From contig JAPKDQ010000002.1 of NCBI GenBank assembly GCA_028822445.1, positions 186,001-250,000 on the forward strand: DNA of 64,000 bases. The letters run 5' to 3'. This stretch comes from Rhodospirillaceae bacterium. Its GTDB lineage: Bacteria > Pseudomonadota > Alphaproteobacteria > Rhodospirillales > Rhodospirillaceae. Shown here one piece after another: positions 42,122-56,681 of the stretch. The notes under the pieces were generated by a model. The model saw nothing but the letters and a program-made list of their open reading frames with translations. It searched no databases and was not told the origin of the DNA. The position numbers and the translations under genes were made by a program. Numbering within the stretch: position 1 is the first letter of the stretch; every line of letters begins with the position of its first letter.

Positions 42122-42738
42122 GCTTGTGCCACATTGTGTTCTCGCAAAAAGGCAAGTAGAGGAAGCAACGGCAAACCAAGAATAGAAAAAAAGTCACCAT
42201 CAACTTCACTAAAGAGCTGAGCACCCCGCCCCTCAAGATGATATGCGCCGACAGATGACAATATATCCTCCCCAACAGAAGAAATGTAGCGATCCAAAAA
42301 ATCATCTGAGAAGTTACGCATTGTCATATTGGACCGGTTTCGATAATGCCAAATCCGCTTGCCTCCTAAAGCAACAACAGCCGCCGTTACCAAAGAATGC
42401 GTTTGTCCGCGTAGGGTCATAAGATGCGCCTTCGCATGATCAACGTCTGCCGGTTTATCAAACCAAACGCCCTGTAAATCGAGAATAGAATCTGCACCAA
42501 TAACAAGAGATAGCGGATTACCGAGAGAAATCTTCACGGCTTTTAATTCTGCCAACGTCTCTGCAGCTTGTATCGACTCAGCTCCTTCCAACCTTAGAGA
42601 CTGTTTAACCGCATCCTCATCAATATACGCCGGTTGAGCCGTGAATTTTATTCCAGAAGCACTAAGCATTCGAGCGCGGCTTTGACTTGCAGAAGCAAGA
42701 ATAAGAGGTGGGCGGGTTTGATCTTCCGACTGCGTCAC
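42118..42738 (-). CDS. maf: Maf-family nucleotide pyrophosphatase
   Basis: House-cleaning nucleoside-triphosphate pyrophosphatase of the Maf/YceF type. LILASASQSRARML near residue 13 and GADSILDLQGVWFDKP near 81 are signature segments. The 206 residues fit. The start is GTG overlapping the ppsR stop in GTGA, and its own stop overlaps aroE, so translation is coupled on both sides. The preferred base is not predictable. Confidence 0.94.
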   Translation of the reverse strand: MTQSEDQTRPPLILASASQSRARMLSASGIKFTAQPAYIDEDAVKQSLRLEGAESIQAAETLAELKAVKISLGNPLSLVIGADSILDLQGVWFDKPADVDHAKAHLMTLRGQTHSLVTAAVVALGGKRIWHYRNRSNMTMRNFSDDFLDRYISSVGEDILSSVGAYHLEGRGAQLFSEVDGDFFSILGLPLLPLLAFLREHNVAQA

Positions 42739-43553
42739 GAAGCGTGCCGTTTATTATAAAGCTGAATAATAGAGGCAGCTGTTTCTTCAATTGATTTCCG
42801 TGTGACATCAATAACAGGCCATCCATGTTTTCGGAACAAGCGCCTTGACCCCGCAACCTCTTCCTTAACAAGATCTACATCCGCGTAATCCATACTTCTA
42901 TCTTCGTTCATCAGACGAAGGCGAGATTGCCGAATGTCGGTTAAGCTCTTTGGCTCTCGAGTAAGGCCAACGAAAAGAGGTTTGCTAGCGGTAGCAACAT
43001 CATCAGGTAACACGGCCCCAGGAACGAGGGGGATATTTCCCGCCCTAAATCCACGATTAGCAAGATACATACAGGTTGGGGTTTTAGATGTGCGCGACAC
43101 GCCTATAAGAACGATATCGGCGTCTTTTAACCCATCAAGCGCTTGTCCATCATCATGGGCTAACGCAAAATGCATTGCTTCAATGCGATCAAAATAGTCG
43201 TCGTCAAGCATGTGCTGACGGCCAATTTCATGCCCTCCCTCCTTGTCAAGGACGTTGCTTAAAGCATCCATGACAGGGTCTAGCGCTGAAACGTACGGCA
43301 TTCCGAGTTCTCTACAGACTTGCTCCAGAGGCCCTCGTATCATGGGATCTAATAACGTAAATATGACGAGCCCCGGAGAGGCCTTGATGCCGTCAATAAC
43401 CCGGCTCATTTGTCCCTTCGTCCGAACCAACCACCAAAAATGTTCCGTGATCTCCTGGTCATCGTATTGAACGAGGCAAGCCCTGGCGATCCCGCTAACG
43501 GTCTCTCCAGAAGAATCAGACACGAGATGAAGATTAAGGGGTGTCTCTACCAC
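42735..43553 (-). CDS. ppsR: PEP synthase / pyruvate,phosphate dikinase regulatory protein
   Basis: DUF299 family bifunctional kinase/pyrophosphorylase that switches PEP synthase or PPDK by threonine phosphorylation. LHLVSDSSGETV is the N-terminal signature and IVLIGVSRTSKTPTCMYLAN holds the P-loop-like nucleotide site. The 272 residues start at GTG 43553. This is the family of Rickettsia RP001, the gene that borders the alphaproteobacterial origin. It heads a five-gene overlapping operon. Its dikinase partner is not in the window. Confidence 0.95.
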   Translation of the reverse strand: MVETPLNLHLVSDSSGETVSGIARACLVQYDDQEITEHFWWLVRTKGQMSRVIDGIKASPGLVIFTLLDPMIRGPLEQVCRELGMPYVSALDPVMDALSNVLDKEGGHEIGRQHMLDDDYFDRIEAMHFALAHDDGQALDGLKDADIVLIGVSRTSKTPTCMYLANRGFRAGNIPLVPGAVLPDDVATASKPLFVGLTREPKSLTDIRQSRLRLMNEDRSMDYADVDLVKEEVAGSRRLFRKHGWPVIDVTRKSIEETAASIIQLYNKRHAS

Positions 43554-44145
43554 CGCGCTAAACCCTTTTTTTTATGTCTAATAATGGGGACAACTCACCT
43601 TTATTAACCTGCAGGAACTTTTCTATCCTCACTATTAGTATTTCACCTAGTTAATTACAAACGGAGGATAAGTTTCTATTTATAAGTATAGATACTGTGA
43701 AGAACGTGGTTATACCCATAATTCATTATATTAAATTGAAAACAACCCACTCATCACTCGTTGATTACAGTAGCGCATTGTTCTCGTAAGCAGTCTTATA
43801 CCCAGCATTTCAACTATCTTGGGTCTCTTTAATTCTGAGGATTATTTAGGGCATTAAAAATAATCCCCGTTTTAAACAACCCCTACAACTACTACATATT
43901 TTTAAGATTCTTATTTTAAGTAGTAAGATAATTAGATGAGAGTTTTCGTAAGCTACTTTTAAATATTAATTGACAGGCTTACTGTAGTTACGGTAACGAT
44001 TTTATAGTTTACCCTCCTTTTAAATTCAAAACGACATTCCAGCTCATATCCAGCTTTCTATATAATTTGTCACTTTGAATTTTACCCTCAACGTCAACAA
44101 GCCTTCTTAACATCATGTTTGATTAGGTTTCGGAGCTTTTTCTCC
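43554..44145. other. Candidate chromosomal replication origin (oriC), AT-rich
   Basis: A gene-free, strikingly AT-rich stretch of 592 bases lies between the divergently oriented ppsR and rho. TTATACCCA occurs at 43710-43718 and again at 43796-43804; it differs from the DnaA box TTATNCACA at one position. GGAGGATAA at 43663-43671 is a weaker reverse match. Runs such as TTTAAATATTAATTGA near 43957 could unwind. ppsR is the RP001 family that flanks known alphaproteobacterial origins. Strand-biased gene direction changes here. No experiment or skew calculation supports it yet. Confidence 0.6.
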
Positions 44146-45402
44146 ATGCATCTTCAAGATCTTAAACGTAAAACACCCCCTGAGCTTTTAGCTTTTGCTG
44201 AAGAGCTTGGTATCGAAAATGCGTCAACTTTGCGCAAGCAAGACATGTTGTTTTCAATTCTTAAACAGCTTGCCGAGCAGGATCAGGCAATTTCTGGTGA
44301 AGGTGTTCTAGAGATTCTCCAAGATGGGTTCGGATTTCTTAGATCTGCTCAGTCAAACTACCTTGCCGGGCCAGATGATATTTATGTTTCGCCCAGTCAG
44401 GTTAGACGCTTTGGTTTACGAACAGGAGACACTGTAGAGGGGGAAATACGAGGGCCAAAAGATGGCGAGAGATATTTTGCCCTTTTGAAAGTTAATACGA
44501 TCAACTTTGAACAACCCGATGCAGTTCGTCACCGCATCAATTTTGATAACTTAACGCCGCTTTATCCTGATGAAAAACTAAATATGGAGATCGAGGATCC
44601 TACTGGTAAGGAGTTAACGGGGCGTGTTATCGAGATAGTGTCTCCGCTAGGAAAGGGACAGCGTGCCCTTTTAACGGCTCCTCCGCGTGCTGGTAAGACC
44701 GTGATGTTGCAAAATGTTGCTCAAGCGATCGCAGCTAATCATCCAGAAGTATATTTAATTGTATTATTGGTCGATGAGCGCCCTGAAGAAGTTACCGATA
44801 TGGATCGAACGGTAAAGGGAGAAGTTGTTAGCTCTACTTTTGATGAGCCAGCTCAGCGACACGTTCAAGTGGCTGAAATGGTTATTGAGAAGGCTAAACG
44901 GTTGGTCGAACACAAACGAGATGTAGTTATTCTTCTTGATTCGATTACTCGTTTGGCTCGGGCTTATAACACTGTAGTTCCATCATCAGGGAAAGTCTTA
45001 ACAGGCGGAGTTGATGCAAATGCATTGCAAAGACCAAAGCGGTTTTTTGGCGCGGCTCGTAATATTGAGGAAGGCGGGTCGCTGACAATTATTGCGACGG
45101 CGTTGATCGATACAGGCAGCCGTATGGATGAGGTAATCTTCGAAGAGTTCAAAGGTACCGGGAACGCTGAAATTGTTATGGACCGAAAGCTTTCAGATAA
45201 GCGTCTCTTCCCATCCATTGACATCACGAAGTCTGGCACACGTAAGGAAGAGCTTCTTGTTAGTAAGGAGGCGCTGTCCAAGATGTGGATGTTGCGCGGC
45301 ATTCTTGATCCAATGGGCACGCAAGACGGCATGAAGTTCTTGCTTGAGAGACTCCGTGAATCAAAGAATAACTATGATTTCTTTGATCGTATGAACACCT
45401 AA
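44146..45402 (+). CDS. rho: Transcription termination factor Rho
   Basis: Hexameric RNA-dependent helicase that ends transcription. The N-terminal helical domain ([20 protein letters not shown]), RNA-binding cold-shock fold ([15 protein letters not shown]) and ATPase core with [17 protein letters not shown] and [15 protein letters not shown] are intact. ATG 44146 has GGAG 11 bases upstream and gives 418 residues. It lies directly beyond the candidate origin; in many relatives heme genes sit between them. Confidence 0.98.
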
Positions 45403-53985: not shown

Positions 53986-54135
53986 ATGGGGCCTTCGTTT
54001 TTTAGCCTCGTTATTAATTTAGAAAACCCGAAATTAGCCGCAGCTGTTGAGGGCTTGACGGCCACCCCCAACGACGCGATACCAGACCAACAAACCCTAA
54101 TCTTAAAATTTGTCGAACAGGATTGTTTCACGTGA
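53986..54135 (+). CDS. Possible 49-residue ORF ending in parS
   Basis: A frame from ATG 53986 (MGPSFFSLVINLENPK) to a TGA at 54133-54135 within parS, overlapping the rsmG GTG in GTGA. It has no clear ribosome binding site and no recognised family. Chance is a serious alternative. Confidence 0.18.
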   Translation: MGPSFFSLVINLENPKLAAAVEGLTATPNDAIPDQQTLILKFVEQDCFT

Positions 54136-54139
54136 AACA
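54124..54139 (+). promoter_or_regulatory. parS site 1 (ParB binding)
   Basis: TGTTTCACGTGAAACA is an exact copy of the bacterial parS consensus. It overlaps the GTG start of rsmG. ParB loads here to organise the origin region for segregation. Confidence 0.95.
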
Positions 54140-54767
54140 GAGGCTCTTCGCCGCCGCTGAATTTCAAACCGCCACCAATGTTTCACGTGAAACATTGGAT
54201 CGCTGCAAAATCTATGTGGACCTTCTCCATGAGTGGAGTGGGCGTATGAACTTGGTTGCGCGGTCGACCTTAGATGAGGTCTGGCACCGGCACATGTTGG
54301 ATTCAGCCCAGCTGTTTCCGTTGATCCCAGTGGGCACTAAAACACTGGTTGATCTGGGCTCGGGCGCTGGGTTTCCAGGCTTACTGATGTCCATTATGGG
54401 AATTTCTGGGGTGCATCTTGTCGAATCGACGGGCAAAAAGGCGTCGTTTCTGCAAACTGTTGTCAACGAAACAGGAATCTCCGCAAAAATTCATAATGAT
54501 CGCATTGAAGCCCTAAGGCCGTTTATAGCCGACGTGATAACTGCCAGGGCCTTGGCGCCGTTGGATAAATTGCTGAATTATGCCGCCCCTTTTTCGGGAC
54601 CAAACACCCTACACCTCTACCATAAGGGACAACATGTGGGGCATGAATTGACCAAGGCACACAAAATATGGAATATAAAGGTGGATCTGATACCCAGTAG
54701 TACTGATCCGCAAGGTAGTGTTTTGAGCGTGTGCGAGGTGTCCCGTGTCAAGCCAGATCGATTCTAA
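54132..54767 (+). CDS. rsmG: 16S rRNA (guanine-527-N7) methyltransferase RsmG
   Basis: Methylates G527 of 16S rRNA. The SAM-binding motif DLGSGAGFPGL near residue 75 and ARALAPLDKLLNYA are diagnostic. Start choice: GTG 54132 gives MKQRLFAAAEFQTATNVSRE; a TTG at 54123 would add three residues (FHV). Both lie within parS site 1, and parS site 2 encodes the NVSRET stretch. The 211-residue product overlaps parA by 23 bases. Confidence 0.95.
   Translation: MKQRLFAAAEFQTATNVSRETLDRCKIYVDLLHEWSGRMNLVARSTLDEVWHRHMLDSAQLFPLIPVGTKTLVDLGSGAGFPGLLMSIMGISGVHLVESTGKKASFLQTVVNETGISAKIHNDRIEALRPFIADVITARALAPLDKLLNYAAPFSGPNTLHLYHKGQHVGHELTKAHKIWNIKVDLIPSSTDPQGSVLSVCEVSRVKPDRF
54179..54194 (+). promoter_or_regulatory. 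parS site 2 (ParB binding)
   Basis: A second exact TGTTTCACGTGAAACA, extended to a 20-bp perfect palindrome by AA and TT. It is inside rsmG, 55 bases from site 1 centre to centre. Confidence 0.95.
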
Positions 54768-55578
54768 CCCCCCCCAAGCCTATCGATCTGATGGGGGGGT
54801 TTCGCCGCGCGTTCTTGCTATTTCTAATCAGAAAGGCGGTGTTGGTAAAACGACGACAGCAGTAAACTTGGCCACAGCGCTCGCGGCCGTTGATAAGCGG
54901 GTTCTGATTGTTGATCTCGATCCTCAGGGCAACGCATCTACCAGCCTAGGCATCCCTATTAATATGAGGGAAATCAACACGTATCATGTCTTGATGGGTG
55001 ATGCTGGCCTAGATCGGGCCTGTGTCGCCACGGACGTCCCCAACCTCAGTATTGTGCCATCCGGCGCTGACCTGGCCGGCGCGGAACTGGAGCTGGTTGA
55101 TGTGAATAACCGCGAGGGGCGCTTAAAGGCTGCCGTCAGCGGGGCTTCTGCCGACTACGACTACATTCTGATCGATTGTCCGCCCTCTCTGGGCCTGCTG
55201 ACCCTCAATGCTTGGGTTGCTGCCCAGGCAGTGCTGGTTCCACTCCAGGTCGAGTTTCTAGCCCTTGAGGGGGTCAGTCAACTGGTACGCACTATCGAGC
55301 GTGTTCGGCAGTCTTTCAATCCAGACCTCGTAATCCAGGGTATCGTTCTCACTATGGTTGACAAACGAAATAGCTTATCAGAAATGGTTGAATCAGACGT
55401 CCGTGGCTTCTTTGGCGATAAGGTCTACACTACTGTTATTCCCAGAAATGTGCGGGTTTCAGAGGCCCCGTCCCATGGCAAACCCGTTCTTCTCTATGAT
55501 TTTAAATCTAAAGGCGCCCAGGCCTATCTGAGCCTAGCTGGAGAAGTGCTGAAGCGCGAACGGGCTGTTGCAGCATGA
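54745..55578 (+). CDS. parA: Chromosome partitioning ATPase ParA
   Basis: Walker-type ATPase that drives movement of ParB-parS complexes. The deviant Walker A ISNQKGGVGKTTTAVNLATA lies at about residues 26-45, followed by LIVDLDPQGNASTSLG and DYILIDCPPSLGLLT. The start is GTG 54745 with GAGGT just upstream, inside the end of rsmG. A C8 tract (54768-54775) and a G7 tract (54793-54799) occur in codons 8-18. The 277 residues fit. parB overlaps the stop. Confidence 0.97.
   Translation: MSSQIDSNPPQAYRSDGGVSPRVLAISNQKGGVGKTTTAVNLATALAAVDKRVLIVDLDPQGNASTSLGIPINMREINTYHVLMGDAGLDRACVATDVPNLSIVPSGADLAGAELELVDVNNREGRLKAAVSGASADYDYILIDCPPSLGLLTLNAWVAAQAVLVPLQVEFLALEGVSQLVRTIERVRQSFNPDLVIQGIVLTMVDKRNSLSEMVESDVRGFFGDKVYTTVIPRNVRVSEAPSHGKPVLLYDFKSKGAQAYLSLAGEVLKRERAVAA
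54768..54799 (+). repeat. C8 and G7 homopolymer pair at start of parA
   Basis: Eight C at 54768-54775 directly after the rsmG stop and seven G at 54793-54799, separated by 17 bases. They can form a 7-bp G-C stem in the parA mRNA. Such tracts are prone to slippage, which would shift the parA frame. Confidence 0.85.
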
Positions 55579-56681
55579 GCGCCAATAAGCCACGTCAGAG
55601 CCTCGGCCGGGGCCTGGATGCCCTCTTTGGTGAAACTGCTGAGGTGGCGCCGGTAACCGTTGCACCGTATGGCCAACTTGACACCCCGCCCGCCTCACAG
55701 CCAAGTGTGGCTGTTTCTAAGGGCCTAGCGGAAATTCCCGTTGAGCACATGGCGCCATCGCGTTTTCAGCCCCGCCGCGTGTTTAATGAGACGCAGATAG
55801 ATGAGCTTGCGGCCTCTATTCGAGATAAGGGTGTACTCCAGCCCCTCCTGGTTCGGTCGGCGCCCGACGGCACATATGAGATCATTGCAGGTGAGCGGCG
55901 CTGGCGCGCTGCGCAACGGGCAAAAATACACCAAGTTCCTGTTATCATTAAAGAATTTACAGACACAGAGGTCCTTGAAGTGGCCTTGGTTGAGAACCTT
56001 CAGCGTGCTGATCTCACCCCACTTGAAGAGGCCGAGGGCTATCAACGCCTGTCAGATGAATTTGGTCATACGCAAGAAGCGCTGGCTAAAGTTCTGGGTA
56101 AAAGTCGCGGCCATGTAGCTAATATGATCCGTCTTCTGACCTTACCTGAGAGCGTTAAACACCTGCTTGATCGTGGCTCTCTGTCTATGGGGCAGGCCCG
56201 GGCGCTGATCGGCGTGGCAGACGCGGGCGACCTTGCCAAACAAATTTTGGCCCGGGGCCTATCGGTCCGCCAGGTTGAGAAACTGGTTAAAAAGCACGGA
56301 AAAGTAAGCCGTCCACGCGTTTCTAAGGTCGCTCAGGCTGCGGCCGAGAAGGATACGGATACACGTGACCTAGAAAACAGGCTCGAAGAGGCTCTCGGCT
56401 TGAAGGCCGAAGTCAGCTTTGACGGCAAGGGCGGCGTGCTGTCGCTTTCATATTCAGATTTGGAGCAACTCGACGAACTCGTGAGCCGTTTGACCCGGGC
56501 CAAGGCGACCCGCCCATTCGTGGCGGACCGTGATCCGAATGTGCTCGACATCGAAGAAGTGTTGGCTAAGCGTGGCGGAATCTTCAAGCTCGGTCATAGT
56601 GAAGAAGAGCGAGTGGCAAGGCCTCAATTAGACCCTCACCAAGACGGAACGGGTAGCGATGGATCAATAGGTCAAGAATAA
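55575..56681 (+). CDS. parB: Chromosome partitioning protein ParB
   Basis: parS-binding CTPase that spreads on DNA. The ParA-stimulating N-terminus SLGRGLDALFGE, the C-box region GERRWRAAQRA, the helix-turn-helix with VLGKSRGHVANMIRLLTLPE, and the C-terminal dimerisation part (VLSLSYSDLEQLDELVSRL) are present. The 368 residues exceed the usual length because of an acidic C-terminal tail. ATG overlaps the parA stop in ATGA. Two parS sites lie 1.4 kb upstream. Confidence 0.97.
   Translation: MSANKPRQSLGRGLDALFGETAEVAPVTVAPYGQLDTPPASQPSVAVSKGLAEIPVEHMAPSRFQPRRVFNETQIDELAASIRDKGVLQPLLVRSAPDGTYEIIAGERRWRAAQRAKIHQVPVIIKEFTDTEVLEVALVENLQRADLTPLEEAEGYQRLSDEFGHTQEALAKVLGKSRGHVANMIRLLTLPESVKHLLDRGSLSMGQARALIGVADAGDLAKQILARGLSVRQVEKLVKKHGKVSRPRVSKVAQAAAEKDTDTRDLENRLEEALGLKAEVSFDGKGGVLSLSYSDLEQLDELVSRLTRAKATRPFVADRDPNVLDIEEVLAKRGGIFKLGHSEEERVARPQLDPHQDGTGSDGSIGQE

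Follow-up and report, generated by a model that had tools for sequence, protein, structure and literature searches.

The 64,000-nucleotide stretch of Rhodospirillaceae DNA analysed here (the window) corresponds to positions 186,001 to 250,000 of a 564,474-bp contig, from a genome of 2.85 Mb in 41 contigs that is 98.9% complete. Two divergently oriented genes, ppsR and rho, enclose an intergenic region referred to below as the gap, and partitioning genes lie further to the right:

42735–43553, minus strand: ppsR (COG1806/RP001), PEP synthase/PPDK regulator, left flank of the predicted origin (NCBIfam PRK05339.1, 313.9 bits)
43554–44145, no strand: ppsR–rho intergenic region (skew minima and AT maximum on the contig; synteny in relatives)
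44146–45402, plus strand: rho, transcription termination factor, right flank of the predicted origin (TIGR00767, 700.6 bits)
54124–54139 (contig 240124), no strand: parS TGTTTCACGTGAAACA, a perfect palindrome (motif scan)
54179–54194 (contig 240179), no strand: second perfect parS (motif scan)
54745–55578, plus strand: parA-like chromosome partition ATPase (best match NF041546, 108 bits, under the cut-off of 180)
55575–56681, plus strand: parB (TIGR00180, 194.2 bits)

A first-pass annotation, made from the sequence alone, described the gap as a gene-free, AT-rich stretch between divergent genes, and this description holds: its composition is 66.9% AT, and the most AT-rich 592-bp stretch of the whole contig begins at contig position 229566 (window position 43566), 12 bp into it. 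The assignment of ppsR to the RP001 family likewise agrees with the account in PMC1914354, in which RP_001 is COG1806 and flanks the Rickettsia origin. The likely start of rho is the ATG at 44146 (plus strand) rather than the upstream TTG (44119) with which the open reading frame listing begins, because the protein matches of relatives begin at or adjoining the residue of this ATG. The parA-like gene is named from a match below cut-off together with its place before parB. A scan of positions 43000–45000 against Rfam at gathering thresholds gave no matches. We predict that the left two thirds of the gap form the chromosome origin and that the right third holds the promoter and leader of rho.

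Position of the predicted origin

Skew analysis of the 564-kb contig, one of 41 and part of a 2.85-Mb genome, places the cumulative GC-skew minimum at window position 44180 (35 bp outside the gap), the TA-skew minimum at 43533 (21 bp outside) and the keto-skew minimum at 43896, inside the gap. The cumulative GC-skew check proposed with the first-pass annotation thus finds its minimum at the gap and not elsewhere, on the contig rather than on the whole genome. Comparable analyses of two genomes of the same genus, based on 300 kb of G001 (from a contig of 894 kb) and 320 kb of G005 (from one of 700 kb), place the skew minima 4.0–4.3 kb and 2.7–5.8 kb, respectively, away from the orthologous gap; the AT maximum overlaps that gap in both.

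The two parS sites, about 10 kb from the gap, are the only perfect copies on the contig. Gene directions were said to diverge from the gap, and a bias of this kind is present: among open frames of at least 180 codons, 26 of 37 in the left 50 kb lie on the minus strand and 25 of 39 in the right 50 kb on the plus strand, which is a moderate bias only.

The marks of an origin found at the gap are its place at the skew minimum, on one contig of 41, and its character as an AT-rich intergenic region. On computational grounds we predict that the ppsR–rho gap is the chromosome replication origin, with a probability of roughly 0.9. The earlier proposal that the origin lies here, with rho at the place expected for hemE or another gene, is supported by the skew, the AT maximum, synteny and a protein tree, the last two of which are described below.

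Neighbors of ppsR and heme genes in relatives

A scan of named genomes with an alignment of ppsR found 279 relatives, of which the best 80 were used. Beside ppsR, 47 of these 80 carry hemE (hemE-type) and 30 carry rho in a flank lacking hemE (rho-type); in the other three (L105, L108, and L118) the sequence ends early. Among the 47 hemE-type loci of this set, 40 have rho beyond hemE in the same orientation, starting 2.7–4.0 kb from the ppsR start, and the other seven show no rho in the flank examined. We rejected rho as a universal neighbor of hemE: besides these seven loci, rho is separated from ppsR by about 22 kb in genome G025 and is on another contig in G020, so the order ppsR–hemE–rho is common but not universal. 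By match coordinates, hemH (ferrochelatase) adjoins hemE in many relatives, between hemE and rho, and in L125 a hemJ-like frame, identified by eye from its likeness to a TIGR00701 protein, lies between the same two genes. Extrapolation from protein matches gives gaps of 272–617 bp at hemE-type and 407–687 bp at rho-type loci.

In a tree of combined ppsR and rho proteins with 69 rows, built by a quick method from loci with a sufficiently long rho match (10 of the 80 had no rho match in the flank, and rho was too short in L152 and L163), the 31 rho-type rows, the window included, form one side of a branch with an SH-aLRT value of 100. Ten records titled "Candidatus Marinimicrobia" (L095, L097, L099–L102, L104, L109, L114, and L127) fall inside the Rhodospirillaceae-like clade of the tree, and L132, titled Stygiobacter, groups with Magnetospirillum; given their placement on the tree, these titles look wrong. 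L121 and L123 represent a very AT-rich lineage of the clade, with gaps of 407 and 414 bp and a GC content of 19–21%; their ppsR–rho gap is shorter, and a TTGACA...TAACGG motif precedes rho.

Heme genes were surveyed in a genome sample in which 30 of 55 ppsR matches in relatives were taken as loci, 15 of the 30 having rho beside ppsR. No match to hemE (PF01208) was found in 12 of these 15 genomes, the window's own among them, and in the other three (G007, G024, and G029) hemE is on a different contig from ppsR. The copy in G024, away from the origin (L174, G024:C10, 4442–13276), is clustered with hemC, hemJ, and hemH, together with a glutamyl-tRNA reductase that narrowly exceeds its cut-off and a hemL-like frame that scores below its own cut-offs. 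This is a C5-type heme gene set, which is unusual for alphaproteobacteria, and a foreign origin of the cluster is therefore likely. In G007, contig C25 holds hemE, hemF, and hemH together.

Matches to hemB and ferrochelatase occur in all seven genomes of the window's genus, and in G001 the genes for 5-aminolevulinate synthase, hemC, and hemB are grouped with a siroheme synthase domain. HemF (PF01218) has no match in any of the seven, which says little, since it exceeds the cut-off in just 14 of all 61 genomes and many hemE-carrying genomes are among the misses. At the right end of G000:C12 (L172, 8493–9041), in the window's own genome, the contig stops inside a gene that by eye resembles uroporphyrinogen-III synthase and adjoins hemB, so part of a tetrapyrrole cluster is cut in the assembly. 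These genomes probably retain tetrapyrrole synthesis to supply siroheme and take up heme or porphyrin.

DnaA boxes, a conserved element, and the likely rho promoter

The following features were located within the gap:

43585–43593, minus strand: weak DnaA-box-like TTGTCCCCA, which contains TCCCCA; TTATCCCCA in some relatives (scan and alignment)
43663–43671, minus strand: weak DnaA-box-like TTATCCTCC, within a block conserved in close relatives (scan and alignment)
43710–43718, plus strand: TTATACCCA, copy 1, weak DnaA-box-like; faces TTTTCCCC in five of seven close relatives
43796–43804, plus strand: TTATACCCA, copy 2; of the seven close relatives, kept in G004 only
43858–43903, plus strand: predicted unwinding element, resembling a DnaA box, a GC spacer, and DnaA-trios (conservation, matrices)
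43861–43869: element part TAATCCCCG
43870–43878: element part, decayed proximal DnaA box TTTTAAACA
43880–43883: element part, CCCC
43883–43897: element part, DnaA-trio-like CTA-CAA-CTA-CTA-CAT, trios read on the minus strand
43904–43923, no strand: conserved AT-rich block beside the element (alignment)
43970–43999, plus strand: likely rho promoter, TTGACA (43970–43975), 18 bp, TAACGA (43994–43999), conserved in close relatives

The two copies of TTATACCCA lie exactly where the first-pass annotation put them. Its statement that they are one mismatch from the DnaA box is right for the looser TTATNCACA but not for TTATCCACA, from which they differ at two positions. Two copies occurred in none of 2000 randomised gaps of like composition (first-order Markov). 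The suggested DnaA-box scan returned a mixed answer: the gap contains no TTATCCACA site that is exact or within one mismatch, but eight weak sites with two mismatches, compared with a randomised mean of 2.4 (SD 1.5), and at least eight such sites were seen in 0.4% of 500 randomised gaps. No site fitting TTATNCACA, the consensus given in PMC1914354, is present either, the looser TTWTNCACA being absent from the gap.

Exact boxes are scarce in rho-type gaps generally. Among the gaps of the best 80 of 279 relatives plus the window, 25 of the 47 hemE-type gaps contain an exact TTATCCACA, versus one of 31 rho-type gaps, and a site within one mismatch is present in 45 of 47 versus 23 of 31. Exact boxes are enriched 190-fold over randomised gaps in the hemE type and 2.5-fold, on one site, in the rho type; for sites with at most two mismatches the values are 7.9-fold and 3.1-fold. 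In six rows from the window's genus exact boxes are absent, and sites with at most two mismatches average 9.2, against 2.35 in randomised gaps. The usual strong DnaA boxes have faded in rho-type gaps. Weak boxes do not exclude an origin, since the Caulobacter origin Cori is described as working with weak G- and W-boxes, where higher affinity can lower replication (PMC4468827). The CtrA motif TTAA-N7-TTAA is absent from the window's gap and from all 78 gaps (47 hemE-type and 31 rho-type), and the IHF motif WATCAN5WTR is absent from the window's gap and present in 20 of the 78.

The emphasis that had been placed on the TTATACCCA sites shifts with an alignment of eight rows (the window, six other genomes of its genus, and G009), in which the best-conserved part of the gap is instead 43858–43923. 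The highest-scoring 20-bp segments are 43881–43900 (0.90) and 43958–43977 (0.89, at the rho promoter), followed by 43904–43923 (0.88) and 43577–43596 (0.87), the mean being 0.71. The first of these is the CCC-TACAACTACTACAT block, opposite which other rho-type genera, in an alignment that excluded L121 and L123, show ACTCACAGG-CC-AAC. At the corresponding place, the end adjoining hemE, hemE-type gaps typically carry ATCCCCG-N-TATCCACAGG-CC; (C/T)CACAGG occurs in the last 120 bp beside hemE in 27 of the 47 hemE-type gaps among the best 80 of 279. A single GANTC (CcrM-type) site occurs in the gap, at 43906–43910, within the conserved AT-rich block that adjoins the predicted unwinding element.

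A 46-column ungapped matrix from 22 rows of other genera, with columns taken from an alignment that included the window, ranks position 43858 first of 1,128,858 contig positions. A second matrix, built from 16 of 24 rho-type rows of other genera, each anchored on its own CACAGG-type motif and containing no letters of the window, ranks the element second on the contig and first in the gap, 18 bits over any other place there. Profile HMMs built from the relatives' elements and rho promoters gave no significant or correctly placed match, and a hemE-type matrix, non-specific on the contig, scored best in the gap near the element (43855) at one of three widths.

The Bacillus-type basal unwinding system is described as a DnaA box, a spacer, and a DnaA-trio, with a published search rule of a box with at most two mismatches, a spacer of at most 16 bp, and at least three NAN trios (PMC8287927). 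The window's element falls outside this rule: both of its boxes have three mismatches, no box within two mismatches is found at the conserved element, and just two CTA trios are consecutive. In a simplified form (a single box, without the tandem clause), the rule is satisfied at the same place in L093, of the same genus, and is matched four times in the window's gap, two of the matches being at gap positions 70 and 157. It is matched anywhere in 20 of 31 rho-type and 17 of 47 hemE-type gaps (randomised, 39% and 10%), and with at least one CTA trio in eight of 31 and five of 47 (randomised, 5% and 1%); because randomised gaps also often satisfy it, the simplified rule carries little weight.

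The right third of the gap (about 43960–44145) looks like the promoter and leader of rho itself. A motif of the form TTGAC(A/T)...TA lies 170–271 bp upstream of rho in 35 of the 40 hemE-type loci with rho, a raw count without chance control.

Such a promoter raises the question of whether the gap merely combines divergent ppsR and rho promoters with an AT-rich rho leader, the true origin being elsewhere nearby. The conserved sigma-70-like promoter does fill the right third together with a leader some 150 bp long, and the skew minima of two relatives lie 2.7–5.8 kb off the gap; promoters would leave unexplained, however, the coincidence of three skew minima with the AT maximum of the contig. 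The most conserved block (43881–43900) is moreover to the left of the rho promoter, and the 190-fold excess of exact DnaA boxes in the orthologous hemE gaps also argues against this reading, which we regard as improbable. We give next to no credence to an origin at dnaA, the arrangement of many bacteria: although dnaA is on the same contig (354.5 kb), about 124 kb from the gap, the skew is still climbing through it and has no minimum there, and PMC8116508 describes dnaA as not conserved near the origin in Rhodospirillales.

How rho came to lie beside the predicted origin allows two histories that look alike in the window alone. That rho was inserted there, rather than hemE–hemH–hemJ being lost, seems very improbable to us: 40 of 47 hemE-type loci already have rho beyond hemE within the stated distance and in the same orientation, 35 of these 40 have a similar promoter motif, and 12 of 15 rho-type genomes have no hemE at all, even if the seven loci lacking rho and its separate position in G025 and G020 lend insertion some room. 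Since rho commonly lies beyond hemE in hemE-type loci and the rho-type rows form one side of a branch of the tree, rho probably adjoins the origin through loss of the hem block. The simplest history would be loss of this block between the origin and the rho promoter, with the join somewhere in 43924–43969; we infer a single deletion.

Proposed working of the origin and comparison with known systems

Position, skew, AT content, synteny, the conserved element, and box decay are computed properties of the gap, from which we infer DnaA binding, melting, and helicase loading as follows. The left two thirds of the gap would be a DnaA-dependent origin inherited in place from the hemE–ppsR origin of Rhodospirillaceae; with the loss of the hemE–hemH–hemJ block in the ancestor of the clade, the ancestral rho promoter and leader would have come to abut it. 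DnaA would sit cooperatively on the weak boxes lined up along the left arm and on the half-decayed tandem site at 43861–43878, would be guided onto the trio-like strand at 43883–43897, and would open the adjacent AT-rich DNA at 43898–43923. Helicase would then be loaded and forks depart both ways, the left one past ppsR–maf–aroE–coaE–dnaQ and the right one past rho–mnmE–mnmG–parAB, with parS 10 kb off.

The DnaA protein itself differs in the clade. In domain IV (loci L210–L238) the GGRDHTTV signature is kept, and the residues just before it read GRAF in 14 of 14 clade rows (13 rho-type genomes plus G013, in which ppsR was not found) and GRKF in all 15 others; one of the 30 DnaA loci (L239) has no row. 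G008 and G059 are among the GRKF rows, yet have no hemE match. Alanine at this place should be compatible with DNA binding, because E. coli DnaA reads GDAF there. The trio-like element lies about 70 bp from the rho promoter. It is conceivable, if doubtful, that loss of heme genes, loss of boxes, and the change from lysine to alanine beside the recognition helix of DnaA together amount to a rebuilt initiation switch, in which weak boxes and a trio-like element could respond to rho transcription; the link among these changes is a correlation, and, as they map to one clade, they may be a single event.

For the location of origins, hemE is one of the flanking genes in use in alphaproteobacteria (PMC1914354). 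This landmark fails in the rho-type clade, where ppsR (COG1806) and the pair of parS sites still serve. A search of the open-access literature by title and abstract, in which "hemE" also retrieves "heme" and which is thus weak evidence of absence, brought no description that we recognised of a rho-flanked or hemE-less origin in Rhodospirillales. The clade offers a natural series from exact to weak-only DnaA boxes at one orthologous place, and with it the question of how little affinity suffices. Most of the genomes checked have lost hemE and a few carry a heme cluster that looks foreign, which would tie the layout of the origin to a nutritional change.

With the hemE–COG1806 type of origin the gap shares the COG1806 (ppsR) flank and, by synteny, tree, and element matrices, an orthologous position and descent. 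In place of the hemE flank it has rho, and PF01208 is without a match across the genome. Because it lacks not only the hemE flank but also the TTATNCACA box and the sites for CtrA and IHF, we do not class it as a member of that type; it most likely works like one.

The Bacillus-type basal unwinding system (PMC8287927) and the window's element have the same order of box, GC spacer, CTA repeats, and AT-rich DNA, the latter with a decayed box and interrupted trios that the search rule does not accept. Cori of Caulobacter crescentus resembles the gap in its COG1806/ppsR left flank and AT-rich gap (404 bp there according to PMC1914354, 592 bp here), in a parS within about 10 kb (8 kb in Caulobacter; PMC4468827), and in weak DnaA sites, the G- and W-boxes of the same account; unlike Cori, the gap lacks a hemE flank as well as CtrA and IHF consensus sites, and it has a rho promoter on the right. 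The hemE–ppsR gaps of Magnetospirillum, Telmatospirillum, and Caenispirillum, themselves only putative origins, occupy the same locus with the same left flank, but keep hemE, and exact DnaA boxes are found in 25 of the 47 hemE-type gaps. A further parallel is with the hemE–COG1253 origins described for Wolbachia and Ehrlichia (PMC1914354), where the origin is likewise kept and one classical flanking gene changed: COG1806 is replaced and hemE kept there, whereas here hemE is lost and COG1806 kept. We regard the window's predicted origin as a derived form of the COG1806-flanked alphaproteobacterial origin, from which one classical flank has been lost.
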